DNA from: Paenibacillus sp. G2S3
GTDB taxonomy: Bacteria > Bacillota > Bacilli > Paenibacillales > Paenibacillaceae
Reading direction: 5' to 3'
Assembly: GCF_030123105.1 (NCBI RefSeq)
Contig: NZ_CP126095.1
Span: 2,356,001-2,420,000 of the forward strand
Length of the DNA: 64,000 nt
Part shown: piece by piece, positions 50,019-64,000 of the stretch
How positions within the stretch are numbered: the stretch's first letter is position 1
Layout of the letters: each line of letters opens with the position of its first letter
Made by a program: the position numbers and the translations under genes
Notes under the pieces: generated by a model
The model's database searches: none
Seen by the model: only the letters and a program-made list of their open reading frames with translations
Told to the model about the DNA's origin: nothing

Positions 50019-50076
50019 TAATCGAGATAGATTTATTCCAATCTATAATTAAATATTTAGGTTTATTATGCATATT

Positions 50077-50105
50077 GACCACGTCCTTTGGATGTGGTTT
50101 TTTTG
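50077..50105 (+). terminator. Rho-independent terminator
   Basis: ACCACGTCC pairs with GGATGTGGT, loop TTT(G), then TTTTTTT. Confidence 0.8.
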
Positions 50106-50225
50106 TGGATTTAAGAAAGTGAAGGGTTCATACGACACCGAATTCCTATTTTTCTACAAGAAAGGTTGTACTTTTTAATGGGATGTTTAAGGCATTTTTT
50201 CTAGTTTAAAATTAAAATAAAATTC

Positions 50226-50288
50226 TTGACACTTCCTAATGATAACCATTATCATAGGAATGGTAGATGAAAATGAAAATCATTATCA
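50226..50288 (+). promoter_or_regulatory. Promoter with two Fur boxes
   Basis: TTGACA (50226-50231) and TATCAT (50250-50255) with an 18-base spacer. The first Fur box TGATAAC-C-ATTATCA (50240-50254) overlaps the -10; the second TGAAAAT-C-ATTATCA (50274-50288) covers the transcript start region. Each is a 7-1-7 match to the Fur consensus with one change, so iron repression of the import operon is expected. Confidence 0.8.
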
Positions 50289-50330
50289 CTACTTGGAACG
50301 TATAATTATACATACTCGGAGGGATAGATT

Positions 50331-51368
50331 TTGAAGAAATTATTAGTACTTCTGGTTGTTGCAGCGCTTACTGCAATGACTGCATGTTCGTCCACCAATA
50401 CAGCGGACAATCAAACCAAGAATGAAGCCGTAACGAATACAGCTGCTAATGAAACGAAAGAAGCAAATGCAGCGAATACAACAGAAGCAGCGAAAACAGC
50501 GGATGCTGGAAAGGAATACAGTCTGGAGAATGATGGTGTAGATGAAGCATTGTTCAATGAAGCATTAAGCCAGTTTCCAGCCACAGTTCCACAGCGAATT
50601 GTAACTACATCTGTACCATTAACAGAAATGCTCTACTTGCTTGGAATCACACCAGTTGGGGTGCCAACCTCCACCAATCCAATCCCTGCTGATTTTGAAT
50701 CGATAGATAAAATTGGTTCGCCAATGGCACCGGATCTTGAAGTAGTAACAAAGCTTGAGCCAGACTTGCTGCTGGGAGCAGAATCACTTCGAAGCACACT
50801 GGATAAGACACTGGAAGGCATGGATTTGCAAAAAGCGTATCTACGCACAGAATCCTTCGAGGATTTAAAGCTTAGCCTTAAAGTATTAGGTACTTATTTT
50901 AATAAAAAAGATGAGATGAATGCGGCTTTGAGTAAGATATTGGATAAAGAAAATGAGCTAAGTAAATTAGCCGAAGGAAAAGAACTGCCGAGCGTGATGC
51001 TCGTTATTGGAACCTCTGATTCCTTCATGGTTATGAGTGAGAAATCTTATCTAGGTAGTTTGGTGAAAAAGCTTGGCGCTGATAACATTGCTACATCTGT
51101 ACTTAAAGTTACGGACACTTACTCCCCGATTAATATGGAGAACATTGTAGCCGCTGATCCAGACATTATTCTTGTACTCGCTTCAGGTGATCATGGAGCG
51201 ACAAAGGATAAGTTCAAAAAAGAAATCGAGAAGAATGAAACTTGGACCAAGCTCTCCGCTTATACAAACGATAAAATTCACATGTTAGATTACAGCGTGT
51301 TCGGTGTGACTTCGATTATTAATGCAGAGACAGCACTAACTGAAATTGCAAAATACTTCTATGAATAA
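50331..51368 (+). CDS. Iron-siderophore/heme ABC transporter substrate-binding lipoprotein
   Basis: A 345-residue lipoprotein with a signal peptide and lipobox ending ALTAMTAC (lipidated Cys19), an acidic/Asn/Thr linker (residues 20-60) and a periplasmic-binding fold of the FhuD/BtuF type (PQRIVTTSVPLTEMLYLLGI, then DLEVVTKLEPDLLLG). TTG start with CGGAGGG upstream. Binds a ferric siderophore or heme; the HugZ-like gene downstream favours a heme or haem-linked role but does not prove it. Confidence 0.87.
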   Translation: MKKLLVLLVVAALTAMTACSSTNTADNQTKNEAVTNTAANETKEANAANTTEAAKTADAGKEYSLENDGVDEALFNEALSQFPATVPQRIVTTSVPLTEMLYLLGITPVGVPTSTNPIPADFESIDKIGSPMAPDLEVVTKLEPDLLLGAESLRSTLDKTLEGMDLQKAYLRTESFEDLKLSLKVLGTYFNKKDEMNAALSKILDKENELSKLAEGKELPSVMLVIGTSDSFMVMSEKSYLGSLVKKLGADNIATSVLKVTDTYSPINMENIVAADPDIILVLASGDHGATKDKFKKEIEKNETWTKLSAYTNDKIHMLDYSVFGVTSIINAETALTEIAKYFYE

Positions 51369-51384
51369 TTAAAGGAGACGGCAA

Positions 51385-52374
51385 GTGATAAAAACATCTC
51401 GTAGCAGAATAGTTGTTATTGTAACGGTTCTATTAGCGCTCGTTGCCGCGATTATCGCAATCGGACTAGGCTCTGTATTCATTTCGGTATCTGACATACT
51501 CAGCACGATCTTTAGTTCATCGTCTAAGGCGGTGAATGCCACCATCATATGGGATATTCGATTACCACGCGTATTACTGGCGATGGTCATCGGAGCGAAT
51601 ATAGCGATCTCGGGCGCACTGCTGCAAGCTGTGATGGGTAACCCACTTGCTGATCCTGGATTGACAGGTGTAACTAGTGGGGCTGCTGCATGTGTTCTTG
51701 TCATAATGCTTGCTGCACCACAGTATACTCAGTTCATTCCGATTGCTGCTTTTGTTGGTGGACTAATCGCTGCCGGCATTGTATATGCATTGGCGTGGAG
51801 ACGAACCGGCATTTCGCCGGTTACCATTATTTTATCTGGTGTTGCTGTGAATGCGCTCTGCGGAGGCGTTATCGGACTCTTAACCATCATGTACAGCGAT
51901 AGACTTCCTGCAGCGGTTCAATGGCTTAACGGTAGTCTTGCGGCTAAAGGGAATAATGCCTTGATGATGGTTTTGCCCTATGCCATTGTAGGTTGGATCT
52001 TATCGTTCTTCGCGATTCGTAAGGCAAATATCATTCGTCTGGGTGATCAGGTGGCTTCGAATCTGGGTGAGAATGTGAACCGAATTCGTATCTTACTCTC
52101 CTTACTGGCAGTATTTCTAGCGGCTATTTCTGTAGCAGCCATTGGAATGATTGGATTTGTTGGTCTAGTTGTACCGCATATGGCGAGAATGCTTGTTGGT
52201 TCTGACTATAAATATCTTTTGCCGATGAGTATGGCTCTTGGCGCTTTAGTACTGTTGATTGCGGATACAGGTGGTCGTACTCTATTTGCACCACTAGATA
52301 TTCCTTCGGGTATCCTTATGGCTGTGATTGGTGGACCTTATTTTCTATACCTGATGAGAAAGAAGGCATTCTAA
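51385..52374 (+). CDS. FecCD-type ABC transporter permease
   Basis: A 329-residue inner-membrane permease with about ten helices. FecCD landmarks are IIWDIRLPRVLLAMVIGAN, GALLQAVMGNPLADPGLTG and IGFVGLVVPHMARMLVG. GTG start with AAAGGAGACG. It is the only permease gene in the operon, so it should act as a homodimer. Confidence 0.92.
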   Translation: MIKTSRSRIVVIVTVLLALVAAIIAIGLGSVFISVSDILSTIFSSSSKAVNATIIWDIRLPRVLLAMVIGANIAISGALLQAVMGNPLADPGLTGVTSGAAACVLVIMLAAPQYTQFIPIAAFVGGLIAAGIVYALAWRRTGISPVTIILSGVAVNALCGGVIGLLTIMYSDRLPAAVQWLNGSLAAKGNNALMMVLPYAIVGWILSFFAIRKANIIRLGDQVASNLGENVNRIRILLSLLAVFLAAISVAAIGMIGFVGLVVPHMARMLVGSDYKYLLPMSMALGALVLLIADTGGRTLFAPLDIPSGILMAVIGGPYFLYLMRKKAF

Positions 52375-52375
52375 C

Positions 52376-53155
52376 ATGTTTACTGTCGACTCCATTTCGA
52401 TTCGGTATGAGCAGAAAAGCGTGATTAACAACTTCTCTTTTTCCGTAAAAAAAGGCGAGATCGTCTCGATCATAGGACCAAACGGCTCCGGTAAATCCAC
52501 TTTGCTCAAAGCGGTATCACGGCTAATTCCTTATCACACGGGTACGGTCATACTCGATGGTACGGATCTGAAGACCATGAGCGCCAAACAAGTCGCACGA
52601 AAAATGTGCATGCTGAGCCAGAAGAATCAAGCGCCGAGTGATATGACTGTGATCGATCTGGTCTCTTATGGCAGGTATCCACATAAAAAGTGGTTCGAAA
52701 GATTGAACCAAGAAGATATGGATATTGTACAGTGGGCTCTTGAGAAGACACATTTGATGGAATATAAGGACCGAGCCGTAGCTTCATTGTCAGGTGGAGA
52801 ATCACAACGTGCATGGATTGCAATGGCTTTAGCACAACGCCCTCTGATCATGTTGCTTGATGAACCGACCACGTACTTGGATATTTCCCATCAGCATGAA
52901 GTGCTAGAGCTTGTTCGTGAGTTAAATCAAGATATGGGTATGACCGTAGTGATGGTGCTGCATGATCTCAATCAAGCTTCTACTTATAGCGATAGTATTG
53001 TTGTAGTGCAGGCTGGTGAAAAAGCGATGTATGGCACACCCAATGAAGTCATGACAGCAGACATGATCCGGGATGTCTACCGAATGGATGCGGAAGTCCA
53101 GTATGTGCCTACAGAGAAGAAACCTCGTATTCATTTGTTGAGTACCGTTCGATAG
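52376..53155 (+). CDS. Iron-chelate ABC transporter ATPase (FepC/FhuC-like)
   Basis: A 259-residue ATPase: Walker A GPNGSGKST, signature LSGGESQRAW, Walker B LIMLLDEPTTYLD, H-loop VLHDLNQAS. One base separates its start from the permease stop. It energises uptake with the two upstream genes. Confidence 0.92.
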   Translation: MFTVDSISIRYEQKSVINNFSFSVKKGEIVSIIGPNGSGKSTLLKAVSRLIPYHTGTVILDGTDLKTMSAKQVARKMCMLSQKNQAPSDMTVIDLVSYGRYPHKKWFERLNQEDMDIVQWALEKTHLMEYKDRAVASLSGGESQRAWIAMALAQRPLIMLLDEPTTYLDISHQHEVLELVRELNQDMGMTVVMVLHDLNQASTYSDSIVVVQAGEKAMYGTPNEVMTADMIRDVYRMDAEVQYVPTEKKPRIHLLSTVR

Positions 53156-53200
53156 ATTCTTAGTGTTATTACATAACCTATTCATGGAGGGATTTTTTTA

Positions 53201-53728
53201 ATGAAGAAGCCTGTAGATGTAGAAAAAAATAAAGAAAATTACTTACAATTTATTAATAAACGTAAAAATCTGATTTTGAGTTTAATCGATGATGAAGGTA
53301 AGCCTTTTATTAGTTATGCGCCTTTCGTAAAGAAAGATGGCAAGCTGTATATCTATATTAGTAAGATTGCAGAGCACTATGGCTATATGGAAAATAATGA
53401 TTTTGTAGACGCTTTTCTAATTGCGGATGAGTCTGAAACAAATAATAAATTTGCAACTGAGCGTGTGCGTTGGAGTTGTACCTCAAGCAATATCGGCAAT
53501 GATGGACATGAGGATATTTTTGAGTTGTTCAATGCGGATCATGGTGAAGCTATGCTGAAATTGCTGCGTGGACTGGATTTTTCATTGTTCGAACTGACCC
53601 CATTGAAGGGTCGTTATGTTGTAGGATTTGGATTGGCTTTTGATATTGATGTGGATGCGAATATATTTAATCACGTTGTTATTGATAAGAAGAAAGACGA
53701 AGAAGCAACTGTACAAGGGAGCAAATAG
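53201..53728 (+). CDS. HugZ-like heme-utilisation protein (FMN-binding split barrel)
   Basis: A 175-residue protein of the pyridoxamine-phosphate-oxidase-like fold. FISYAPFVKKDGKLYIYIS and LIADESETNNKFATERVRW match HugZ-type proteins, which bind or degrade heme. The family His is near FNHVVID. Its position right behind a Fur-controlled iron importer supports release of iron from heme in the cytosol. AGGGATTTTTTTA precedes the ATG. Confidence 0.75.
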   Translation: MKKPVDVEKNKENYLQFINKRKNLILSLIDDEGKPFISYAPFVKKDGKLYIYISKIAEHYGYMENNDFVDAFLIADESETNNKFATERVRWSCTSSNIGNDGHEDIFELFNADHGEAMLKLLRGLDFSLFELTPLKGRYVVGFGLAFDIDVDANIFNHVVIDKKKDEEATVQGSK

Positions 53729-53731
53729 CCG

Positions 53732-54160
53732 ATGACTATTACTTCAGTACTGCCTATCTGGCAAGCGGTTCAAGAGCGATTTCATAAAATGGTGAAGGCA
53801 TTGCCGGAAGAAGACTTAAATCTTAAATTAGGCAATTCGTCCATCGGAGGTTTGATTTCTCATAATGCCGAGGTAGAGTTTATGTTTGCAGAGTGGTTCT
53901 TTGGTAGACCTAAACCCCAAGCCGATGATGCAGCATATACTACATTAAGTGAACTGGTGGATCTGCTAACGGCCTCCAATGAGAATTTAATTGCAGCGAT
54001 GCGTGAGCTTCCGGAAGATGCTTGGCATGTGAGTGTAGAGTCGTCTTTTGGCACATCTACTCCGCTTGAAGCGGTAGGAAGACTTATGTATCACACAGGC
54101 ATTCATGCCGGACAGATTTCTCTGATTCAGAAAAATGCGGTTCGAAGTGAAGCGCTGTAA
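53732..54160 (+). CDS. DinB-fold (DinB_2) protein
   Basis: A 142-residue four-helix bundle protein. The putative metal residues are in LISHNAEVEFMFAEW and YHTGIHAGQI (His-x3-His type), as in DinB/YfiT-like thiol S-transferases. It starts three bases after the HugZ-like stop and may assist heme or thiol metabolism, or be a passenger. A terminator ends the operon here. Confidence 0.72.
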   Translation: MTITSVLPIWQAVQERFHKMVKALPEEDLNLKLGNSSIGGLISHNAEVEFMFAEWFFGRPKPQADDAAYTTLSELVDLLTASNENLIAAMRELPEDAWHVSVESSFGTSTPLEAVGRLMYHTGIHAGQISLIQKNAVRSEAL

Positions 54161-54186
54161 GGTAAAAGAGTAGAGTAGACATGGGG

Positions 54187-54211
54187 AAACGGCAGAAATG
54201 CCGTTTTTTTT
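54187..54211 (+). terminator. Terminator of the iron/heme operon
   Basis: AAACGGC pairs with GCCGTTT around AGAAAT, then TTTTTTT. Confidence 0.85.
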
Positions 54212-54283
54212 GTGCGTTCTTTTGAAGTCCTATGTAACCTGTTGATTTGGTATAATATAGGTGATTCCAAGGGGGCGTAAATC

Positions 54284-54691
54284 ATGACGGAGTACTTGCG
54301 AGGACAAATGGCCAAGATGGCGAATGTGAACATGGAGACGTTAAGGTATTATGAAGAGCTTGGACTGATTAGCATACCTTTACGATCGGAAGCGGGGTAC
54401 CGTCTCTATTCGGATGAGGTACTTAGCCGACTTGTTTTTATACAAAATGCTAAACTCTGTGGATTCACATTAAAGGAAATCAAAAAGGCGCTCACAAAAT
54501 CGGAAAGCAGCGGCATTAGCATAGATGATTTTGTAAACGTTGTAGATAAAAAAATGGATAAAGTTCGTAGCGAAATTGCTAAACAGGAAATAAAGCTCAC
54601 TGCTCTTGCAGATTTGCGAAAAAATTTGTTGGCTGCAGATAAGCATCCAGGCGTGCAGTCAACGCTAGAAATATTAAAAATGGAATCTTAA
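54284..54691 (+). CDS. MerR family regulator (heavy-metal/drug responsive type)
   Basis: A 135-residue MerR protein: RGQMAKMANVNMETLRYYEELGLI helix-turn-helix, YRLYSDEVLSRLVFIQNAKLCGFTLKEIKKAL and a long dimerisation helix. It has one Cys (LCGF) and no CxxC end, so a metal role is uncertain. The operator-like promoter immediately downstream of this gene drives the hydrolase gene. Confidence 0.87.
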   Translation: MTEYLRGQMAKMANVNMETLRYYEELGLISIPLRSEAGYRLYSDEVLSRLVFIQNAKLCGFTLKEIKKALTKSESSGISIDDFVNVVDKKMDKVRSEIAKQEIKLTALADLRKNLLAADKHPGVQSTLEILKMES

Positions 54692-54692
54692 C

Positions 54693-54724
54693 TTGACCTT
54701 GTAGTCACCTACAGGCTTTACACT
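54693..54724 (+). promoter_or_regulatory. MerR-type promoter with long spacer
   Basis: TTGACC (54693-54698) and TTACAC or TACACT (from 54718/54719) are separated by 19-20 bases, with CTTGTAG-TCAC-CTACAGG as a near-palindrome between them. This is the arrangement MerR regulators need to twist and activate. Confidence 0.65.
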
Positions 54725-54758
54725 CTGAGTTGAAAAGACCTGTGGGAGGGATCGAGAT

Positions 54759-55670
54759 ATGGAAAAAACGAGTGTAGAACAGCTTGCAGCGATCAAAAAT
54801 TATTTGAAACAAACAAATCGGTTTGAAAGTAAGTCTGTAGAGCAAATTCGGCAAGAAATGGTTGAAGCGGCTGCGAAGCTGCCCAGTCATACCGATGTCA
54901 CAGTTGAACGGGTCATGATTGGGCCATTAAGCGGAGAGTGGATCATTCCTATGGAATCTGATCCACCTGATGATAAAGTGATTCTTTATTTTCATGGTGG
55001 TGGTTTTATTTCAGGAACCTGTGAATTTTATCGCGATTTAGCAGCACGAATTGCAAAAGCTAGTGGCATGAAAGTACTAATTATTGAGTATCGCCTTGCG
55101 CCTGAGTATCTTTATCCCGCTGCTAATGAAGATTGTATAGGGGCTTACCGGTGGTTGCTTGCGAATGGATATTCTGCGAGTGATATCGTGTTTGGAGGAG
55201 ACTCTGTTGGAGCCAGCCTTGCGCTGATGACACTGATTACTTTGCGGGATGAAGGTAGGGAGTTACCAGCAGGTGCTTTTTTAATCTCACCGCATACTGA
55301 TCTTGTCCATTTGGATGGTGAATCGTATCAGAGTCGTGCGGAGCTTGATCCGACAGGTAGCTTGGAAGGGAATAAGTGGATACTTGATGCATATGTAGGT
55401 CCTCGAACAGAGTCGGCTCCTATATTATCGCCGTTAAGAATGAGTTTGCAGGGATTGCCTGATTTACTCGTTCAAGTAGGCGACCATGAGGTGCTATTAA
55501 GCGATTCAACGAGGTTGGCTGAACGGGCGAAAGTAGCGGGTGTTCATGTAGAATTGGAAATATGGGAGAAGATGTGGAGTGTTTTTCATTTCTTAGCGTA
55601 CATGCTCCCAGAAGCTCAGCAAGCGATTGCGAAGATCGGTAAGTTTGTTAGAGAGAAGTTAGACGAGTGA
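54759..55670 (+). CDS. Alpha/beta hydrolase (hormone-sensitive lipase family)
   Basis: A 303-residue hydrolase with the HSL oxyanion motif HGGG (His79-Gly82), nucleophile Ser149 in GGDSVGAS, an acidic residue in LVQVGDHEVLL and the triad His in MWSVFHFLAYM. Hydrolyses esters of medium chain length or drugs. GGGAGGG lies upstream of the ATG. It is probably activated by the neighbouring MerR protein. Confidence 0.85.
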   Translation: MEKTSVEQLAAIKNYLKQTNRFESKSVEQIRQEMVEAAAKLPSHTDVTVERVMIGPLSGEWIIPMESDPPDDKVILYFHGGGFISGTCEFYRDLAARIAKASGMKVLIIEYRLAPEYLYPAANEDCIGAYRWLLANGYSASDIVFGGDSVGASLALMTLITLRDEGRELPAGAFLISPHTDLVHLDGESYQSRAELDPTGSLEGNKWILDAYVGPRTESAPILSPLRMSLQGLPDLLVQVGDHEVLLSDSTRLAERAKVAGVHVELEIWEKMWSVFHFLAYMLPEAQQAIAKIGKFVREKLDE

Positions 55671-55698
55671 GAATAAATAGATGAAATAATGTACCTTC

Positions 55699-55726
55699 AC
55701 CTTCTTGAGAGATCAGGGAGGTTTTA
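55699..55726 (+). terminator. Weak terminator
   Basis: CCTTCTTGA and TCAGGGAGG pair with several G-T wobbles around GAGA, followed by TTTTATTT. Confidence 0.45.
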
Positions 55727-55780
55727 TTTGTTGGGGGATGGTAGGTACTCAGGGGTTGGTTGCTATAATTCTTCAATGTT

Positions 55781-55960
55781 ACGGACCGTATTGCAGCTAT
55801 TTGCTCATTTCAGCGCGTTTGGCTAACTATTCGGACTGCATAGCTCTTATTGGCACTTAAGAACGCTGAAAAGGAGGGGATTTGGGTGAAAAGCTGCATT
55901 TGAGTCCGAAAGTGATACGAATTGGCCAGATTTTCGAAAATAAGGGCTCCTCGGTCCGAA
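55781..55960. repeat. Structured intergenic element with nested inverted repeats
   Basis: The 470-base gap after the hydrolase gene has no gene. It contains four GGACYG-type motifs in alternating orientation (55781, 55830, 55903, 55951). The 22 bases at 55830-55851 and 55939-55960 are inverted copies with 17 of 22 matches. TTTCAGCG (55809-55816)/CGCTGAAA (55864-55871) and GCAGCT (55793-55798)/AGCTGC (55892-55897) add inner pairing. This looks like a dispersed, foldable repeat or a miniature element. Confidence 0.55.
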
Positions 55961-56053
55961 TCATTTCGTACAGGTGCTAATGTTTATGGGATACCAAACG
56001 AGCTCCTAGTTTAATAAATTAGTGCGCGTCTATACTGATAATGATTTTACGAA

Positions 56054-56075
56054 TGACAAAGTGATGATATTGTCA
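56054..56075. promoter_or_regulatory. TetR operator 1 (upstream of the regulator gene)
   Basis: TGACAA-N10-TTGTCA, 65 bases before the TetR start. The same arrangement and spacing occurs at 56827-56848 before the SDR gene. Confidence 0.65.
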
Positions 56076-56139
56076 GTTTGTTTTTGATTGTTATATGCTA
56101 TGATAATTACCATCAGAGATAGAGCGAGGGGAAATACAG

Positions 56140-56730
56140 ATGTCGAATGATCTTCCATTATCTAAAGAAAACATTTTGGATGCAGCTGAACAAGTGCTCC
56201 GGCGTTTTGGTCCGGATAAGACTTCAGTTGTTGATGTAGCGAGGGTACTGAAGGTTAGTCATGGTACGCTATATAGACATTTTTCCAGTAAAGCAGCTTT
56301 GCGCGAATCGGTAACCGAAAGATGGTTGCATCAAAATATTTTAGCCCCATTGAAGGACGTTACTGAGCAATTTGATGGGAATGCCAAAGAGCAGCTACGT
56401 CTGTGGTTAGATACTCTAATTCGCAATAAACGGAGCTATGCTGTAGATGATTCCGAAATGTTTGCTATGTACGCCTCTGTAACTTTAGAAGTCGTAGATA
56501 TGATTACCCAACACGTAGATCAATTAATTGGGCAACTCGCACGCATTCTTGAAAAAGGTATACAAACCGGGGAGTTTAAAGCGTTGGAATCAGAGGTTGC
56601 GGCAAGAGCTATTTTTAATGCAACATCGCGATTTCATCATCCTGCTCATGCGAAAGAGTGGCAGTCGGCTATGATTGATCAGGAATTCGAAGCGGTCTGG
56701 GAACTGATGCTTTCCGGAATTTCGTCATAA
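56140..56730 (+). CDS. TetR family transcriptional regulator
   Basis: A 196-residue TetR-type repressor: ILDAAEQVLRRFGPDKTSV then VARVLKVSHGTLYRHFSSKAALRE, and a ligand domain of the TetR_C_7 style (ATSRFHHPAHAKEW). GCGAGGGG precedes the ATG. Two identical-spacing operators suggest that it represses itself and the downstream oxidoreductase. Ligand unknown. Confidence 0.88.
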   Translation: MSNDLPLSKENILDAAEQVLRRFGPDKTSVVDVARVLKVSHGTLYRHFSSKAALRESVTERWLHQNILAPLKDVTEQFDGNAKEQLRLWLDTLIRNKRSYAVDDSEMFAMYASVTLEVVDMITQHVDQLIGQLARILEKGIQTGEFKALESEVAARAIFNATSRFHHPAHAKEWQSAMIDQEFEAVWELMLSGISS

Positions 56731-56769
56731 ATTCTTATGGCATATTTCATAATAGAAAAATGATGGACT

Positions 56770-56801
56770 AAACCTTTTGATGAAGATCGGAAGGTTTTTT
56801 T
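56770..56801 (+). terminator. TetR gene terminator
   Basis: AAACCTT pairs with AAGGTTT, T-run follows. Confidence 0.7.
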
Positions 56802-56818
56802 GCGTCTGGAGAACAATT

Positions 56819-56856
56819 ATAACAAATGACAAAAAATTATAATTGTCACTTGTTAT
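56819..56856. promoter_or_regulatory. TetR operator 2 (before the SDR gene)
   Basis: An extended palindrome: ATAACAA-A-TGACAA, ten AT bases, TTGTCA-C-TTGTTAT. Thirteen of fourteen arm positions pair. The core TGACAA-N10-TTGTCA (56827-56848) equals operator 1. Confidence 0.7.
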
Positions 56857-56915
56857 TTGTGAGTGTTCGATTTATAATCAGACCAACAAGAAAGGCAACC
56901 GAATAGGAGGAATAA

Positions 56916-57662
56916 ATGATGGATCAGAATTTGGTTGGAAAAGTTGCATTAGTGACTGGAGCTTCAAGAGGTATGGGACGGGAAATTGCGGAGAACTTGG
57001 CGTTACATGGTGCGAAGGTTGTTGTTAATTATGCAAGCAGTCCAAGCAAGGCAGAGGAAGTTGTGAACAAAATTAAGCAAAAGGGTGGAGAAGCTATCGC
57101 TATCCGAGCGGATATCAGCCAAGTGGCAGAGCTAGAACAATTATTCCAAGCCACATTGGAAGCTTATGGACAAATCGATATTCTCGTTAACAACGCAGGC
57201 ATTATGATCACCAAGCCGATTGCCAGTATTACGGAAGAAGACTTCGACAAACAGTTCGCTATCAATGTGAAGGGTACCTTTTTTGCTTGCCAGCAAGCGG
57301 CTAAACATATGAGTGAGAACGGACGGATCATTAATTTCTCGACATCGGTTACAGGTCAGATGTTCCCAACCTACAGCATTTATGCGGGAACAAAGGGAGC
57401 AGTGGAACAATTCACTCGTCAGTTAGCTAAAGAATTTGGACGAAAAGGAATCACGATTAATGCGGTTTCGCCAGGTCCTGTTAATACGGAGCTTTTCACA
57501 GTTGGGAAGTCAGCAGAAGAGATTGCGAATGTTGGGAGTATGAATTCTTTTGGATGCTTGGGTGAGCCTGAGGATATCTCGAGTGTAGTGCTGTTTCTAG
57601 CCAGTAAGGAATCACAGTGGGTTACGGGCCAGACGATTCGTGTGAATGGGGGATTTATTTGA
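56916..57662 (+). CDS. Short-chain dehydrogenase/reductase
   Basis: A 248-residue NAD(P)-dependent SDR: cofactor motif TGASRGMGREIA, DILVNNAG, catalytic Ser-Tyr-Lys in FSTSVTGQM...YAGTKGA, and NAVSPGPVNTEL. AGGAGG lies five bases before the first ATG; the second ATG at 56919 is an alternative. Regulated by the TetR gene upstream. Substrate unknown; such enzymes reduce reactive aldehydes, ketones or quinones. Confidence 0.88.
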   Translation: MMDQNLVGKVALVTGASRGMGREIAENLALHGAKVVVNYASSPSKAEEVVNKIKQKGGEAIAIRADISQVAELEQLFQATLEAYGQIDILVNNAGIMITKPIASITEEDFDKQFAINVKGTFFACQQAAKHMSENGRIINFSTSVTGQMFPTYSIYAGTKGAVEQFTRQLAKEFGRKGITINAVSPGPVNTELFTVGKSAEEIANVGSMNSFGCLGEPEDISSVVLFLASKESQWVTGQTIRVNGGFI

Positions 57663-57761
57663 GAGGTTAGAAAATTTTATTTATGTGTAAAATGGCTTAT
57701 CGGATGGGTGTTTACACTTGGAAAACCATACCTATCTCACCCCTTTACATACAAAGAGTAA

Positions 57762-57983
57762 TGTCTTGTAAATCGAATCGTTAAAGACGTAGCAAATAAT
57801 CAATGTATAATCATCGGTCATGTCTGCGAATTTGGAAAAGAGACCGCTGTGTTTTTCTGCAGCGGTGTCGAACAAACTAAGAATAGTGTTGATACCATTG
57901 GCATATTCAATCTAGCACAAAAGAAAATCAAATGGAACTTCCGCCTCGACACTAAGTACTGTGGCGGTTATTGTGTTGAGTAA
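57762..57983 (+). pseudogene. Unrecognised coding relic without a start
   Basis: A 73-codon open stretch between stops: CIIIGHVCEFGKETAVFFC, SGVEQTKNSVDTIGIFNL and NFRLDTKYCGGYCVE. Residue pattern looks like real protein, but no start codon with a ribosome binding site exists. It contains a hairpin ACCGCTG/CAGCGGT (57842-57865). Probably a remnant of a lost gene at the edge of the AT-rich block. The rest of 57663-58109 shows nothing further. Confidence 0.35.
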
Positions 57984-58109
57984 ATATAAGAGTAAAAGTA
58001 ATTTTGTTTAGGTCAGGATTACACATGTTAGAGACTATTTAATATATCATGAAGATAAAGCAAGAATGAAACTTCAGCCCTCTTGAAAAATAACATAAGG
58101 AGGACGTGC

Positions 58110-58244
58110 TTGAAGGTGATGAAATTCGAATACTCACAACTAAAGTCTAAAGTCGCTGGCAGCGTCTCAATAGGCTCTTTGTGCTGTGCAAAATCAATCA
58201 AATGGAGTGAGAAGCGACGAGACCATTGGTTCTCATCGCTGTAA
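58110..58244 (+). CDS. Possible small Cys-containing peptide
   Basis: A 44-codon frame from TTG at 58110 with a strong AAGGAGG six bases upstream (an in-frame ATG is at 58119). The peptide is MKVMKFEYSQLKSKVAGS, then VSIGSLCCAKSIKWSEKRR and DHWFSSL. It has a CC pair preceded by Ser/Gly residues. No family is recognised. It lies upstream of the LytTR/RiPP block and could be a peptide product or a chance ORF. Confidence 0.4.
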   Translation: MKVMKFEYSQLKSKVAGSVSIGSLCCAKSIKWSEKRRDHWFSSL

Positions 58245-58543
58245 GCATAATCACGAATGGTTCATGATGGCTTTAAATCCATCACTGTGAACAATATAAA
58301 CAGTCAACGTCTCTTTTCTAATATTGTACCTAATGATATTCTGGCTTTTAATTTGTAATTTTCAACCTCTATTATAATAATTCGATAGCCGAAATTTAAT
58401 AAAGACTGTCGTTCTTATTATGTGCCTGTCTCTGAGGGGGAAGTATAAGATTGTTTGCTGAATTAAAGTGGTTGAAAAAATGCTGATCCAATATAACTTG
58501 AAAAAGAGAATTCTAATGACCGATCTTTGTATTCACATCATTA
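58245..58543. other. Gene-free AT-rich interval with a hairpin
   Basis: A hairpin built from GTTCA-GATGG and CCATC-TGAAC lies at about 58259-58293. The remainder (up to the LytTR gene end) shows nothing that can be supported as a gene. Confidence 0.4.
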
Positions 58544-59284
58544 CTATACTCTTTGAAAAGTATGTTCGCAAAGAGTGCTCGTATGAACTTCTATCACATC
58601 CTTCTTATACAATCGACCCAAAGGAAGTATGTCCTTGTTTGTCATTACTACTTTACTGGAGGTGAATTTTTGAATATGCTTCAGGTTAACAATGGCAGAT
58701 TTATGTATCTGATAGAAATTCATATCGAGTCTTTCTGAGAGCTGAGTCAATGTTATCGCAGAATATAATACCTGATCCAGGGTGGTTATTTTAACATGTA
58801 GTTTATCTACTTTGACCAATGATATAATTTCAAATGTTTGTAGAATTACCTCTCCATCCGTTGTTTTTAGCTTAATGTGAGGGTAGATGGCGGTATTTAT
58901 ATATACGAATGCTCTTTGCAATAATACTTGGAACGTTTCGTAAACCAAGGGTTTTAACTGATAATAAAATGGTTGTACATTAAAACTATCGATCATATAT
59001 TCAGGAGAATCAGCTAGAAAAATGATCTGGACGTTATAGTCTGGTTCAGCGCGAATTTTGAGTATAGTGTCTATCCCGCTGATGCCGGACATTTCGATAT
59101 CTATAAGGATTAAGTGGAAGGTATATCGACCGGGAAGACTATAATAATATAATAATTCCTCTCCCGACGGAAAATATTGTACATAAAAGATAGATGAAGA
59201 ATTTTTTGAAAATTCTGAAAAAAATTTCTTGAACTGCTGAAGCGTTTTTTCGTCATCATCGCATACTGCTATATGCAACAACAA
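58544..59284 (-). CDS. LytTR family response regulator
   Basis: About 246 residues: a receiver domain (VCDDDEKTLQQF, phospho-Asp in LILIDIEMSGISG, and a QLKP that replaces the usual KP region with Lys) and a LytTR DNA-binding domain (IKLKTTDGEVILQTFEIIS, FYQIHKSAIVNLKHIQKF). LytTR regulators control bacteriocin and quorum genes. No cognate kinase is in the window. AAAGGAG adjoins the TTG at 59290, so a TTG two codons further in (59284) is the better start. It is divergent from the radical SAM gene. Confidence 0.85.
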   Translation of the reverse strand: MLLHIAVCDDDEKTLQQFKKFFSEFSKNSSSIFYVQYFPSGEELLYYYSLPGRYTFHLILIDIEMSGISGIDTILKIRAEPDYNVQIIFLADSPEYMIDSFNVQPFYYQLKPLVYETFQVLLQRAFVYINTAIYPHIKLKTTDGEVILQTFEIISLVKVDKLHVKITTLDQVLYSAITLTQLSERLDMNFYQIHKSAIVNLKHIQKFTSSKVVMTNKDILPLGRLYKKDVIEVHTSTLCEHTFQRV

Positions 59285-59751
59285 AATCAACTCCTTTAAT
59301 ATGAGAAATAATCCAATTAGTGGTCATTATACCAGAATGATTATCTTAAATGCAATTTACTAGTTTAAACAAAAAACTGATTGATAACGGTTTCATGTCT
59401 GATAACTCATCCAAAAAATGTAAATTAAATCAAAAACACGCTGTTCATATCTTTGAAATGGAATTATATCCAATTGCTTCCATTTTATTAGTTTATATGT
59501 TATATTGATTTTGGAAGAGGCAATATTGCTAGAATACTTTGTGAAAAAAATCTCATGAATCTTTGATTTAAAAGTAAATTACCAGTATTGAGTACGAAAT
59601 CCCTAGTACTATGGACTACAGCCGTAACTGAGAAACTAGAAGTCTTTTCACAGCTATCTGTATTTATTTTGAACATGACATGATTTGGAAAATGAAATGG
59701 TAGTAGAGAGATTAGAAATATATAGATTGATTCTAAGAAAGAGGTGGGAAA
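59285..59751. other. AT-rich divergent control region of the RiPP locus
   Basis: A 467-base AT-rich gap between the LytTR regulator and the radical SAM gene. No ORF with a good start is seen, and no canonical LytTR direct repeats were identified by eye. Promoter elements for the maturase operon must lie here; TAGAATACT near 59531-59539 is a weak -10 candidate. Confidence 0.5.
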
Positions 59752-61302
59752 ATGAGTACATTAAAGTGTCATGAGGAAATCGAGCGTTTGTTTGGAATAA
59801 AACATTATAGTGGGATTCATCGTTTGGGTAAGCTCTTCTCAACGGGGCAGAATATCTACTATTATGACACCGGAACGGGAAAGGTGCTGCAGTTGGAAGA
59901 TGATGCCTTAAAGATCATGCAGTCCCTCTTTGAATTACCTGATGTTAATAATGTCAATGAATTGATGAGAGTACAAGGGATATCGATCTCAGCGATCAAT
60001 GATTTTTGCCAAACGGTAGTCGATGAACATCTGTTTCGAGCATTTAAGCCCGACCGTTTGTATACTCCTGGCCATAACGAGCTTTTAGAGGAGCGGGTTA
60101 ACAATGAGTTATCTCAAGTGATTCTAGAATTAACCGGTCGTTGCAATTTGCGCTGTGGATATTGCATTTACAATGAAGACTGCGACTTGAACAGAGATTT
60201 TAACAACAGTGATATGAGCCTGGAAATTGCGAAGGCAAGTATTGATTATGCGGCAAAGCATTCTGGAGAGAAAATAGCCGTTACTTTTTATGGCGGAGAA
60301 CCGCTACTGAAGTTTGATTTATTGAAATGGGCAGTCGAGTATTCATTGGAAACCCTAAAGGGAAAAAAAATAACCTTTTCATTGACTACGAATCTGACTT
60401 TGGTGACTAAAGAAATTGCGGATTACTTGGCATTCGTTCCAGGAATGGGGGTTGTTTGTAGTCTGGATGGGCCGGAATATGTACAGAATTCATATAGAAA
60501 ATATGCTAATGGTGAAGGCAGCTACTCACGGGCTATTCGTGGCCTGAAGCTGATGAGTGATTCGTTTTCAAAAAGTGAAAATGCACTTTCCATTAACGCT
60601 GTATTTGCGCCCCCATATTCGCATGACAAGTTGAATGATATTAACTCTTTTTTTGCAGATTTGGATTTCTTGCCTCCCAACGTAGACATTAACATTGGTT
60701 ATGTTGCGGAAGGTAGTCTTCCTAATGCAGAAATAAAACTGAAGAACAATCATAATGTTAATCCGCAGGTCATGGATCCTTTGTGGTCGTGGTTGGAAGA
60801 ACGTGCTTTGATTCGCCCTGACATTAGGGGTGATATTAATGACATTTCTTCGTCTGGTATTGAAAGCTCGTTAATCAGCATAGAAAAGCGTTATCTTACG
60901 GATTCCCCCGGTGAATTTTATCCGTTTAATGGCTGCTGTACTCCTGGTGCACGTAGACTTTATATCACTACTAATGGCGAACTATATGTTTGTGAACGAG
61001 TAGGCGCTTCTCCTTCCATAGGAAATATCGTGGAGGGCATTGATTTTGATCGTCTGAAAAAATATTATGTTGAAGACTATTCCGAAGGTTCGATAGAGCA
61101 ATGCCAAGACTGTTGGGCGATTAGATTGTGCTCTGTGTGTTATGCCCATAACTATACAGAAGAAAAATTTGATTCTGTTGAAAAAAATAGAAAATGTAAT
61201 TTGCGCAGAAGTGTCCATCTCAAGGATTTGGTCCTTTATCATACACTACGGGAAAATTCACCTGAAAAGTTAGAATTCTTGGAACATACTGAAATTTATT
61301 GA
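59752..61302 (+). CDS. Radical SAM/SPASM peptide maturase
   Basis: A 516-residue enzyme likely to crosslink the downstream Cys-rich peptide. Residues about 25-98 form a PqqD-like RiPP recognition region (NIYYYDTGTGKVLQLEDDA). The radical SAM cluster is CNLRCGYC (Cys131, Cys135, Cys138), followed by GGEP (181-184). The C-terminal SPASM region has Cys395, Cys396, Cys414, Cys451, Cys454, Cys460, Cys463 and Cys482, enough for two auxiliary Fe-S clusters. Similar enzymes make sactipeptide or ranthipeptide thioethers. GAGGTGG precedes the ATG. The gene starts the operon with the precursor 66 bases downstream. Confidence 0.85.
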   Translation: MSTLKCHEEIERLFGIKHYSGIHRLGKLFSTGQNIYYYDTGTGKVLQLEDDALKIMQSLFELPDVNNVNELMRVQGISISAINDFCQTVVDEHLFRAFKPDRLYTPGHNELLEERVNNELSQVILELTGRCNLRCGYCIYNEDCDLNRDFNNSDMSLEIAKASIDYAAKHSGEKIAVTFYGGEPLLKFDLLKWAVEYSLETLKGKKITFSLTTNLTLVTKEIADYLAFVPGMGVVCSLDGPEYVQNSYRKYANGEGSYSRAIRGLKLMSDSFSKSENALSINAVFAPPYSHDKLNDINSFFADLDFLPPNVDINIGYVAEGSLPNAEIKLKNNHNVNPQVMDPLWSWLEERALIRPDIRGDINDISSSGIESSLISIEKRYLTDSPGEFYPFNGCCTPGARRLYITTNGELYVCERVGASPSIGNIVEGIDFDRLKKYYVEDYSEGSIEQCQDCWAIRLCSVCYAHNYTEEKFDSVEKNRKCNLRRSVHLKDLVLYHTLRENSPEKLEFLEHTEIY

Positions 61303-61311
61303 TGATATTTT

Positions 61312-61328
61312 TCCTCATATTATGAGGA
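61312..61328 (+). promoter_or_regulatory. Palindrome between maturase and precursor genes
   Basis: TCCTCATA-T-TATGAGGA is a perfect 8-1-8 palindrome without a T-run. It may be an operator, an mRNA processing hairpin, or a weak attenuator that separates expression of the peptide from the maturase. Confidence 0.5.
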
Positions 61329-61368
61329 TCAATATAAATGAATTAACAATAAAGGAGGTGAATAGATC

Positions 61369-61584
61369 ATGTTAGTAATCAATCCCTTGTTTCGCAATCA
61401 AGATGATGCTGTGACAGCTGCACATAAGTGTAACTGTATATGTAATGTGGACACTCCTAATCAACATGATAATACTGGAGACAGAGCATGGTGGTGGGGT
61501 GTTCCGGATTGTGGCTGCGGATGCAACAGCAATATTACTGATAATAAAGAACGTAATACCTCTACAGCAAGTAATGGATCATAA
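61369..61584 (+). CDS. Cys-rich RiPP precursor peptide candidate
   Basis: A 71-residue peptide with an excellent AAAGGAGGTG site. The leader-like part is MLVINPLFRNQDDAVTAAHK. Then CNCICNVDTP (Cys21, 23, 25), a middle with a WWW triad (41-43), and DCGCGCNSN (Cys48, 50, 52), ending in a Ser/Thr/Asn-rich tail. The two CxCxC clusters are symmetric, 22 residues apart (between Cys25 and Cys48). Sandwiched between radical SAM and M16 peptidase genes, it is the likely substrate. The Cys pattern differs from SCIFF and from CxxxD freyrasin-type peptides as I know them. Confidence 0.75.
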   Translation: MLVINPLFRNQDDAVTAAHKCNCICNVDTPNQHDNTGDRAWWWGVPDCGCGCNSNITDNKERNTSTASNGS

Positions 61585-61600
61585 ATGAATTGAATTTTGA

Positions 61601-61635
61601 AAAAGGTGATCTAACTTTATGTTAGCTCACCTTTT
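61601..61635 (+). terminator. Intercistronic hairpin after the precursor gene
   Basis: AAAAGGTGATCTAAC pairs with GTTAGCTCACCTTTT (one mismatch), loop TTTAT, followed by AATTT rather than a strong T-run. Leaky termination here would make the precursor more abundant than the downstream enzymes, a common design in bacteriocin operons. Confidence 0.65.
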
Positions 61636-61680
61636 AATTTAATATATTTATATTCTCTTATTAAGGAGATAGGAATAGGA

Positions 61681-62934
61681 ATGAAACCTAAATTATCTTT
61701 ATCTTTTCAACAAGAAAAAAATATATATTTTGTTAACGATGAATGTGAAGAGACACTGGTAATAGTGTGTATTAAAGCTGGATGTGGTCAGGAGCCATCG
61801 GGTAAAAATGGCATAGCTCATCTAGTTGAACATATATGTCTTTCATACCGTAAGTATATTCCTTCATCATGCAATAGTTCCCTTATTTTTAATGAGATTC
61901 GTTCATCAGGATTTACTAACTATGGTCAAACAATCCTAATGTTCTCTTTTCCATCTCACATGGATAATATCAATATGTTCCACCAGATTTTAATGATAAT
62001 TCTTAGTAATGCTATTATAACTAACAAGACTTTTGAGATATCAAAATTAGAGCTATTGGCTGAATGTAAACAGAAAGGATCTCAGTGGTACTGGCAACAG
62101 GAACTCATTTCTTTTATTACTAATAGCCAGATCAACGAGCTTCCGGTAGGTAAGGTTGATGAGATTGTGCAATTACAGATGAAGGATGCGGTCACATTTA
62201 TTCAAAACAACTACACTAACGATAATTTAGCACTAATATATTTTACCGGACTTCAGGTGCCTGAAATTATATCAAATCTAAATCAAACAATACCATGTGT
62301 AGATACTGTAACTCCTAATTCATTAAATCATCATGAGTTAGGCATCAGTTACGGAGTAGAACAGCAAAAGTTTAACTTGTCAATTTGTAGACTGGAGCAT
62401 CCTACTAATTTAAAAGTCGTAGACTTCTACTATCAACAAACCTATCAATCAGTGAATCTCAAAGAAAAATTGACAAGGATGTTATTTGAAATCATTACAA
62501 AGATAAGTATTGATGAATATGTGTCTGTATCCCCTTATGCTAATAGATGCTCGGACGTTTCAGTAAAGGATAAGCATGTGTCAGCTTATTTTTATTATGC
62601 TGTATTTACACTAACCTTTATTTCCATAGATGACACAATATCTACTTTTGCAGAAGACATTGCTTACTATTTGAAACGATTATTGATCACAGAAGAGAAA
62701 CTGAAAGCATCGAAAGAAAGTATTTCTCCTTTTTTGTGTGAACCAGAACAGCCTAGCAGAGTTGAATTATTCCAAAATATATCCTCGCATTTTTTTTATG
62801 GTGAACCTATTCATATTACGTGTGAACATTACAATCAGTTAAAGGAATTGCTAGATAAAATAGAGGTAAGCGATTTAATGAGTTACAAGAACTGGATTTT
62901 GAATGCTCCTTGCAAAATAGTAATCTCTACCTAA
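61681..62934 (+). CDS. M16 family zinc peptidase (insulinase/AlbF/PqqF-like)
   Basis: A 417-residue peptidase with the inverted zinc motif HLVEH (His47, Glu50, His51) in GIAHLVEHICLSY and a likely third ligand Glu in KLELLAECKQ. Length equals a single M16 half, so it would act as a homodimer or with a partner. In subtilosin and PQQ loci such proteins trim the modified peptide. AAGGAGATAGG lies upstream of the ATG. Confidence 0.82.
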   Translation: MKPKLSLSFQQEKNIYFVNDECEETLVIVCIKAGCGQEPSGKNGIAHLVEHICLSYRKYIPSSCNSSLIFNEIRSSGFTNYGQTILMFSFPSHMDNINMFHQILMIILSNAIITNKTFEISKLELLAECKQKGSQWYWQQELISFITNSQINELPVGKVDEIVQLQMKDAVTFIQNNYTNDNLALIYFTGLQVPEIISNLNQTIPCVDTVTPNSLNHHELGISYGVEQQKFNLSICRLEHPTNLKVVDFYYQQTYQSVNLKEKLTRMLFEIITKISIDEYVSVSPYANRCSDVSVKDKHVSAYFYYAVFTLTFISIDDTISTFAEDIAYYLKRLLITEEKLKASKESISPFLCEPEQPSRVELFQNISSHFFYGEPIHITCEHYNQLKELLDKIEVSDLMSYKNWILNAPCKIVIST

Positions 62935-62942
62935 AGGTGATG

Positions 62943-64000
62943 ATGAGCTTGATTAAAAAAGCAAAACTATTGAAGCGAAATTTAAGGGTTTTTTCAAAAA
63001 CCATTGTTCTTCTTTGGAAGACAAGTCCAGCTACTTTTCTGTCAATTCTTTTTATAGATACACTTATCGGATTGACAGTTCCAGGGAAGTTATGGGCATG
63101 GAAAGAGTTCATAGATGCGGCGACTGAAATTTTGTCTGTTCCTTCTACCTCTTTCAAAAAGATGTTTTTATGGTTGGCCGTAAATTTTCTTCTTGTACTG
63201 CTAGGCTCCGTCTTGGGTAAAGTGTCAAATTTTGTGCAGAATTTATTTTCAGCGCGATTGAATAAAGCTATAACAGATAATATTTTGCATAAAACAATGG
63301 CTTTGGATATGAAAGATTTTGATGACTCCGAAACTTACAATCAAATTCAAAAGTCTAGTGACCAGTCGTTGAATCGAAGTATAAGTATATTGCAAACAAT
63401 TGTAAGTTTTATAAATAATATTACGACTCTTTTTGGTGTTATAGGAATTCTTGTGTTTCTAAAATCTTCCATCGTATTACTGTGTCTTATTTCAGCAGTC
63501 CCGATGTTTTATATCAGTATCAGAATTCTTAACAAATGGTTTGGTGTGTTCAACGAACGGTTTGAACAAAATCGATTTATCAAGCATTTGAAAACAATAT
63601 TAATCACAAATAATTATGTCAAGGAACTAAAAATTTCCCGCTCAGATCAATATCTCACCAAGACTATTCTTGATATATTGGAGAAATACATACATGAGGA
63701 TACAAAAATTAGAAAGCGTTTTTTAATAGAGACATCCTTGGTTGATATCATAGATAATGCGATAATGTATATCATTAAGATTTTGGTAATTATTATTTGT
63801 GTGAACAGCAGGTTAACAATTGGATCTTTAACAATGTATGTAACCGCAGTAGATAATCTAAAAAATGCTGTATCTAATATTCTCTCGTTATTATCGATGG
63901 CTTATGAGAATTGTCTGTATATGCAGAGTATATTTCATTTGCTGGAGATCCCAGAAGAGTATCAGGATGGCAAAAGGGAATTCCCTTCTCCATTTGAGCG
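62943..64000 (+). CDS. ABC exporter (membrane domain; truncated by window edge)
   Basis: The open frame runs to the window end without a stop (352 codons). It shows six membrane helices: LSILFIDTLIGLTVPGKLW, LAVNFLLVLLGSVLG, FINNITTLFGVIGILVF, IVLLCLISAVPMFYISIRI, IDNAIMYIIKILVIIICV and a later one. The layout is the ABCB-type transmembrane domain; the ATPase half should follow beyond the window. No C39 peptidase is at the N terminus, in line with the separate M16 peptidase. The start at 62943 follows AAAGGTG; ATG at 62940 is an alternative. Confidence 0.8.
   Translation, partial: MSLIKKAKLLKRNLRVFSKTIVLLWKTSPATFLSILFIDTLIGLTVPGKLWAWKEFIDAATEILSVPSTSFKKMFLWLAVNFLLVLLGSVLGKVSNFVQNLFSARLNKAITDNILHKTMALDMKDFDDSETYNQIQKSSDQSLNRSISILQTIVSFINNITTLFGVIGILVFLKSSIVLLCLISAVPMFYISIRILNKWFGVFNERFEQNRFIKHLKTILITNNYVKELKISRSDQYLTKTILDILEKYIHEDTKIRKRFLIETSLVDIIDNAIMYIIKILVIIICVNSRLTIGSLTMYVTAVDNLKNAVSNILSLLSMAYENCLYMQSIFHLLEIPEEYQDGKREFPSPFE

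Follow-up and report, generated by a model that had tools for sequence, protein, structure and literature searches.

A probable ruminococcin C-like sactipeptide gene cluster of Paenibacillus sp. G2S3 with a predicted enlarged thioether ladder

Introduction

The alb locus of subtilosin A, a single-hairpin thioether peptide, associates the peptide with two M16 peptidase genes and an ATP-binding cassette (ABC) exporter, and freyrasin (PapA/PapB), from Paenibacillus polymyxa, displays a Cys-x3-Asp spacing. The locus analysed here probably belongs with a third system, ruminococcin C (RumC). It lies at the end of a 64,000-nucleotide stretch of DNA, called the window below, which corresponds to bases 2356001-2420000 of the 6.7-Mb chromosome of Paenibacillus sp. 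G2S3, and it encodes a 71-residue peptide with six cysteines together with a maturase resembling the RumC maturase RumMC. In RumC (RumC1/RumMC of Ruminococcus gnavus; PDB 6t33), the thioethers join C24 to C31 and C22 to C35 in a first hairpin, and C45 to C53 and C41 to C61 in a second one (PMC6779426), a pairing that a review repeats in the mature numbering with the nuclear magnetic resonance structure (PMC8172795). The RumC locus contains two maturase and five precursor genes (PMC6779426), and a putative RiPP recognition element (RRE) has been placed at residues 16-94 of RumMC1/2 (PMC8188230), where RiPP stands for ribosomally synthesized and post-translationally modified peptide. In freyrasin, cysteines are joined to aspartates through beta carbons and the side-chain carboxyl is required (PMC8172795). 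SacP23 of P. polymyxa combines a CLI_3235-type peptide, a CcpM-type maturase and an extracytoplasmic function (ECF) sigma gene in its cluster (PMC10731318), and the M16B pairs Bcn-gP1/gP2 and PttP1/PttP2 are leader proteases of lanthipeptides (PMC8960859).

In the accessible portions of the open literature on RumC-like peptides, CA_C0660, CxCxC sactipeptides and CcpM, nothing was found on the architecture of the window locus, a weak negative as subscription papers lie mostly outside that scope; the same holds for the accessible portions of PMC8326336, PMC13239113, PMC8456703 and PMC8792950. The open-access literature yielded nothing on the chemistry of the CA_C0660 family.

Results

A RumMC-like maturase

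The locus is a contiguous set composed of a LytTR regulator, a radical S-adenosylmethionine (SAM)/SPASM maturase, the 71-residue peptide, an M16 peptidase and an ABC exporter (Table 1). All the elements listed by the first-pass annotation of the window were found, including the CNLRCGYC motif (residues 131-138) and the eight C-terminal cysteines of the maturase, the six cysteines of the peptide and the HLVEH of the peptidase. Its interpretation as a RiPP locus with a thioether product is supported by the family-model search, which places the maturase nearest to the peptide-modifying RumMC family; the homologous loci, in which it had proposed to look for a lack of the cysteine peptide, do carry one.

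The RumMC model (NF035951) matches residues 20-515 of the maturase with 501.4 bits, the best score among 77 NCBIfam families at E<=1, ahead of CcpM (267), lachnocin (161), PapB (153.8, cut-off 340) and the SCIFF maturase (118.8, cut-off 425). Among 7997 candidates scored, 693 are homologues at E<=1e-50. In Pfam, PF04055 reaches 64.8 bits and SPASM 17.3 bits, under its cut-off of 21.5; the C-terminal cysteines (395, 396, 414, 451, 454, 460, 463 and 482) are nevertheless all invariant in the window protein and 16 homologues, and in a 68-row alignment seven SPASM cysteines are invariant and C395 is conserved at 90% or more. The AlphaFold2 model (pLDDT 92) places an RRE-like domain of three strands (26-30, 35-39, 45-48) and three helices (50-60, 68-75, 79-91) ahead of the radical SAM part, so that the protein would have the RRE, radical SAM and SPASM architecture of the RumMC family, the RRE being predicted from the model. 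The top solved fold for this model is 5why (TM 0.57 on the query), which we take to be CteB, a SCIFF maturase.

Elsewhere in the maturase family, two Paenibacillaceae loci (L052, 6288-9479, and L009; L and G numbers are our own designations of loci and genomes) carry two tandem maturases and a precursor with two and five cysteines (2+5), reminiscent of RumMC1/RumMC2. The maturase frame is broken in L053 (7935-11177), L054 (5819-7422) and L016 (7968-9542), from Lachnospiraceae and Oscillospiraceae; in L053 some 1.6 kb separates the two parts, as after an insertion.

A conserved precursor with two clusters of three cysteines

The search of 5.8 billion proteins returned five homologues of the window precursor, one of them a 40-residue fragment. 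The six cysteines are conserved throughout the four full-length homologues and the loci L098, L099, L100 and L018. The dN/dS ratios (nonsynonymous to synonymous rates) against the orthologues of L098, L099 and L012 are about 0.04, 0.05 and 0.18, and 19 of the 22 codon differences from L098 are synonymous. The precursor is therefore more than a chance reading frame and is under purifying selection.

The best model for the peptide is NF035954, the CA_C0660 putative sactipeptide family. A true member of this family (88.7 bits), in L064 of Ruminiclostridium cellobioparum, has the same CxCxC...CxCxC pattern, and peptides of this type thus already belong to a named, uncharacterised family. On the other hand, L023 is a true RumC-family locus (precursor 104 bits for a cut-off of 40, maturase 920 for 720, peptide matching RumC PDB 6t33) that shares with the window its short N-P-x-x-R leader and the gene order maturase, precursor, M16 peptidase, exporter. 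RumC itself also shares the RRE-radical SAM-SPASM maturase and the two cysteine clusters; it differs by its 2+2 cysteines, against 3+3 in the window, where one maturase accompanies one precursor.

When genomes were scanned with the maturase alignment, the top 80 out of 345 encoding stretches represented 79 distinct loci. Together with genus and family genomes, these gave 47 distinct precursors defined by a leader-and-cysteine pattern, one of them added by hand; 39 remain below 70% identity. The pattern required a leader with N[PDV]; at least L022/L024 (3+3, hand-added), L025, L017, L046-L048, L060 and the 3+2 peptide of L041 escaped it, and the rows L088 and L057/L074 were dropped as lying outside the family. 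The classes are 3+3 (n=14), 2+3 (n=12), 2+4 (n=8), 2+2 (n=5) and others (n=8). The 3+3 pattern occurs in Paenibacillus, Peptoniphilus, Aedoeadaptatus, Clostridium, Ruminiclostridium, Lachnospiraceae and Oscillospiraceae, and is therefore not unique to the window. N[PDV]-x(1-3)-[RK] is present near the start of 34 of the 39 non-redundant precursors, a count that is partly by construction since N[PDV] was a collecting criterion.

The cysteine architecture follows the maturase tree, with 14 changes against 28.8 for shuffled labels (48 rows, L041 being labelled 2+2 from a remote second peptide and L045_0 being without an identified precursor of its own). The six Paenibacillus 3+3 loci constitute one clade (100/99) neighbouring a 3+2 locus of Clostridium puniceum; the 3+3 label as a whole requires five changes and is therefore not one clade. 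In the window peptide, three tryptophans (residues 41-43; 61489-61497) stand shortly ahead of the second cysteine cluster, and tryptophan pairs are similarly placed in L018 and L022.

A predicted ladder of six thioethers

By analogy with RumC, the product would be a double hairpin with three nested rungs between cysteine and alpha-carbon in each hairpin, where RumC has two and two. In hairpin 1, position +7 from the last cysteine is Q32 and position +13 from the preceding one is T36, and the series extends by one rung to A40. In hairpin 2, +8 from the last cysteine is K60 and +20 from the first is S68, as in C45-53 and C41-61 of RumC; the register common to RumC and to our prediction is thus +7/+11 and +8/+16 from the last cysteine of each cluster. 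The pair C50-T64 would fill the rung left vacant by the C-x3-C of RumC.

The tail residues N53, I56, N59, N63, A67 and S71 are kept in five full-length Paenibacillus rows, and N59, N63 and A67 (NxxxNxxxA) each directly precede a predicted acceptor. Across the 39 non-redundant precursors, two asparagines are spaced by four residues in 36 tails, against 14.5+-2.6 after shuffling; spacings of 1-3, 5, 7 and 8 show no excess over chance and a spacing of 6 a slight one (18 against 12.9, p 0.04). NxxxNxxxA itself is present in 25 of these tails for 1.9 expected, and in at most 8 in 2000 shuffles.

In the same 39 peptides, the span of each cysteine cluster correlates with the length of the strand that would accept its links (rho 0.81 for the hairpin 1 loop, 0.80 for the hairpin 2 tail), and the crossed controls with cysteine number are not significant (-0.18, p 0.27; -0.27, p 0.10). 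The mean hairpin 1 loop is 20.0 in the 14 peptides with a third cysteine and 15.4 in the 24 without. Contrasts were computed on the maturase tree with 42 tips, L041 being corrected and L045_0 and five near-copies or paralogues dropped. They give for hairpin 1 r 0.50 and a slope of 4.03 residues per cysteine (p 0.0008), equal to the RumC rung step, and for hairpin 2 r 0.51 and a slope of 1.76 (p 0.0005) or, per residue of cysteine span, r 0.59 and a slope of 0.77 for a prediction of 2; three crossed controls lie at p 0.16-0.49. The product may have a RumC topology, in which each of two cysteine clusters precedes its own acceptor strand: two clusters are present and, in this sequence comparison, the span of each appears to track its own strand and not the other.

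The M16 peptidase and the exporter

In 16 aligned M16 rows, H47, E50, H51, E124 and E128 are invariant, that is, the HxxEH and distal glutamate of M16B; R266 and Y305 are likewise invariant and are candidates for the R/Y substrate-binding pair. The structural model resembles the first half of PqqL, M16B subunits and mitochondrial relatives. Since M16B pairs act as leader peptidases on lanthipeptides, a similar role is reasonable here, and the window M16 enzyme would remove the leader, alone or with a partner; three further M16 genes exist elsewhere in the genome. Counting near-duplicates, 46 loci span 9 kb or more and contain a family precursor. An M16 match was obtained in 31 of them, with HxxEH in 29, and an ABC gene resembling an exporter in 30; six of the seven loci in the 2+2 class, which here includes L041, have M16. 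The exporter, complete in the longer stretch L002, comprises 624 residues from a TTG at 62910 or 614 from an ATG at 62940, and no peptidase domain was found in it.

A downstream module retained after apparent loss of the cassette

Beyond the exporter, L002 (6838-11599) encodes an ECF sigma factor, a 264-residue protein without Pfam match, an ABC ATPase and two ABC-2 permeases, the second assigned by similarity. An end of the cluster at the exporter is ruled out, as this module is conserved beside all six six-cysteine Paenibacillus cassettes (L002, L098, L099, L100, L012 of P. macerans and L018 of P. tuaregi), each with at least one permease: two in L002, L098 and L099, and a single one in L100, L018 and the examined stretch of L012. 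The suspicion of the first-pass annotation that the window holds only a first half was thus well founded, the conserved module reaching about 5.6 kb beyond position 64000. The two tandem permeases of L002 (9110-11599; 412 residues each) look like a duplication; the window copy and a paralogous gene of G263 are 62% identical.

The 264-residue gene is found in 18 of 100 same-genus genomes, of which four (G000, G265, G218, G234) have a maturase match at E<=1e-90 and 14 do not. In G263, 59365-64221 is missing from DNA that is otherwise 86-97% identical to that around the window locus: at position 9497 of its locus L127, the alignment jumps from window 59364 to 64222, and the LytTR gene, the last 187 exporter residues and the module are retained. 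G264 keeps 93 bp of the maturase and the exporter end, and G266 keeps a 90-bp fragment of the exporter besides its end, with the upstream context of the cassette-bearing G265. G237 has two exporter pieces at 55-60%, and G233 a single one of 23 residues. Because the junctions of G263, G264 and G266 differ, we read the comparison as at least three independent losses from an ancestral cluster, in which distinct deletions removed the biosynthetic genes and left the ECF/ABC module in place. In nine of the 14 cassette-less genomes no clear remnant was found, with at most 1.1 kb of upstream DNA examined for G239, G274 and G214 (G239 gives a marginal 22-residue exporter match, E 0.001); the cassette may never have been present in these nine.

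In the module tree, which has several long branches, the six cassette loci show no clustering, requiring 6 changes for a mean of 5.4 under shuffling, with every one of 500 shuffles as low; their order matches that of the maturase tree, as judged by eye on six loci.

Regulation and genomic setting

A LytTR gene also precedes the cassette in L099 and L100 (tblastn), L012 (Pfam) and L018 (inspection of the sequence); tblastn found none in the L098 stretch. Control by peptide or density signals, as proposed in the first-pass annotation, finds indirect support in P. macerans, where the DNA directly upstream of the six-cysteine cassette (L012 4895-7943) encodes an AgrB (76 bits, cut-off 23), an AgrD-like open reading frame (by eye, with Cys-Trp-Trp), a GHKL kinase and a LytTR regulator. 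In the window itself, no kinase was seen among the open reading frames beside its LytTR gene (by eye), no AgrB adjoins it, the single AgrB match of the genome (G000:C1:4776988-4777446) being 2.4 Mb away, and candidate LytTR boxes upstream of the maturase were rejected, the best sites in five regions being reached by 37 to 100 of 100 shuffles.

The AT-richness claimed for the locus holds for LytTR (34% GC), M16 (33%) and the exporter (36%); the maturase and precursor, at 40%, are close to the flank (41% over 50000-58543). Plasmid carriage was rejected, tblastn of the precursor giving no match in 72,556 plasmid records; in 50,697 phage records the maturase finds two matches, which are 28-30% identical.

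Table 1. Features of the locus, in window coordinates unless a locus is named
Feature	Position	Strand	Basis or remarks
LytTR response regulator	58544..59290	-	divergent; receiver and LytTR DNA-binding domain; Pfam LytTR 7.6e-13, Response_reg 6.8e-9
Radical SAM/SPASM maturase, RumMC-like, 516 aa	59752..61302	+	NF035951 best NCBIfam match
Predicted RRE-like leader-binding domain (maturase residues 26-91)	59827..60024	+	elements of the structural model
Radical SAM CxxxCxxC motif (C131, C135, C138)	60142..60165	+	invariant in the 17-row and 68-row alignments
SPASM region with eight Cys (C395-C482)	60934..61197	+	Cys conservation in alignments
Precursor peptide, 71 aa, CxCxC ... CxCxC (3+3 Cys)	61369..61584	+	
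Leader, about residues 1-20, N-P-x-x-R motif	61369..61428	+	
Predicted hairpin 1: donors C21, C23, C25; acceptors A40, T36, Q32	61429..61488	+	RumC pairs plus one rung
Predicted hairpin 2: donors C48, C50, C52; acceptors S68, T64, K60	61510..61572	+	RumC register
M16 metallopeptidase (HLVEH 47-51), presumed leader peptidase	61681..62934	+	Pfam M16 27.2 bits, cut-off 22.3
ABC exporter	62940..64000, on to window-equivalent ~64784	+	ABC_tran 1.6e-26
Block missing in close relative G263	59365..64000, on to 64221	.	alignment of L127
Exporter remnants upstream of retained ECF/ABC module	L127 near 9497; L128 6361-6542 (maturase too); L129 6638-6785; L130 6346-6533; L133 5925-5993		genomes without cassette

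Discussion

The locus is, in our judgement, likely to encode a sactipeptide of RumC type whose cross-link ladder is enlarged, and this product is probably antibiotic-like, a larger relative of ruminococcin C, an antibiotic from the gut. The RRE domain of the maturase would bind the N-terminal leader of the precursor, and SAM radical chemistry, as in RumMC, would join the cysteine sulphurs to backbone alpha-carbons. C21, C23 and C25 would fold back on the next strand, meeting A40, T36 and Q32, and C48, C50 and C52 on the C-terminal tail, meeting S68, T64 and K60, thereby generating two three-rung hairpins. The leader would then be cut off by the M16 peptidase, acting singly or with another subunit, and the ABC exporter would secrete the product. 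The ECF sigma/ABC-2 module would protect the producer: self-protection is its most likely role because the trees agree and because strains without the biosynthetic genes have kept it. The alb locus, which the first-pass annotation took as its model, does have a similar set of thioether peptide, M16 and ABC genes; the family scores and the RumMC-type gene order exclude it as nearest relative, and the window has one M16 gene and two cysteine clusters where subtilosin has two and a single hairpin. SacP23 also has an ECF sigma gene in its cluster and differs by its peptide type.

More tentatively, it is possible that the whole RumC superfamily obeys a modular ladder code, in which every further donor cysteine, placed after a two-residue step, corresponds to about four further acceptor residues, and the number and position of the rungs would follow from the sequence. 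The window peptide would then be six-rung (3+3), and the second hairpin of RumC (C-x3-C, acceptors 8 apart) would be such a ladder with its middle rung vacant; processive maturases would co-evolve with the rung number, and producers would repeatedly become immune non-producers through deletion of the cassette and retention of the ECF/ABC module.

Several observations weigh against the RumC-like interpretation. The maturase stays below the curated full-length RumMC cut-off (501 versus 720 bits) and its top structural match, 5why, presumably belongs with the ranthipeptides, although the maturase itself reaches 119 bits with the SCIFF model and 501 with RumMC. The peptide is below the CA_C0660 cut-off (35.0 versus 60 bits) and is not listed by the RumC peptide model NF035950 (cut-off 40) at E<=1 or 0.1. 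The hairpin 2 slope of 1.76 is below the predicted 4; tails are too short for the +4 rule in all three five-cysteine and in one of 22 three-cysteine second hairpins, and so is the loop of the single four-cysteine first hairpin (0/1). The register drifts, since among 11 non-redundant 3+3 peptides the asparagine is at +7, as in the window, in five, at +8 in five and at neither in one, and in RumC itself swapped hairpin 1 links were not fully ruled out by the authors (PMC6779426). Finally, immunity is a guess, nine of 20 module loci lack a clear cassette remnant, and the module may have a broader role.

Three other explanations were considered. The peptide could be a signal or a metal-binding peptide with the ECF/ABC module a stress-response unit that merely adjoins it, as the agr system beside the P. 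macerans locus and the 14 of 18 module genomes without maturase match would suggest; we find this rather unlikely, as the module and cassette trees agree, exporter or maturase remnants persist in five of those 14 (one of them, in G233, only 23 residues long), and the named relatives are bacteriocins. Unlikely too is a partial ladder, with four RumC-like thioethers and C21 and C50 left free, in a disulphide or on a metal. RumC, the closest characterised relative, does have four links, and in its variants neighbouring cysteines can use each other's acceptor (PMC6779426), but all six cysteines are kept in the homologues and orthologues compared above, and hairpin 1 loops lengthen with the third cysteine even after tree correction.

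Links to beta or gamma carbons, making the product a ranthipeptide, appear very unlikely to us. The sub-cut-off PapB and SCIFF scores and the 5why fold speak for them, and freyrasin resembles the window system by its Paenibacillus host, six cysteines and SPASM maturase. However, no Asp or Glu was seen by eye four residues after any cysteine of the window peptide, whereas the Asp carboxyl is required in freyrasin (PMC8172795). Because RumMC scores 501 against 154 for PapB and 119 for SCIFF, and because Cys-x3-Asp is absent, the sactipeptide fits better; of the "sactipeptide or ranthipeptide-like" product first proposed, we retain the former.

In conclusion, a RumC-like sactipeptide with a six-rung double hairpin would be, to our knowledge, the most cross-linked RumC-type peptide. 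If the ladder rule is true, the cross-link patterns of dozens of uncharacterised peptides would become readable from their sequence. The way in which a processive enzyme counts rungs could then be studied within a single maturase family, on peptides that range naturally from 2+2 to 2+5 and 3+5 cysteines. Furthermore, relatives in which production genes have been lost here and there, next to a transporter module that was kept, make it possible to test whether producers turn into resistant non-producers.

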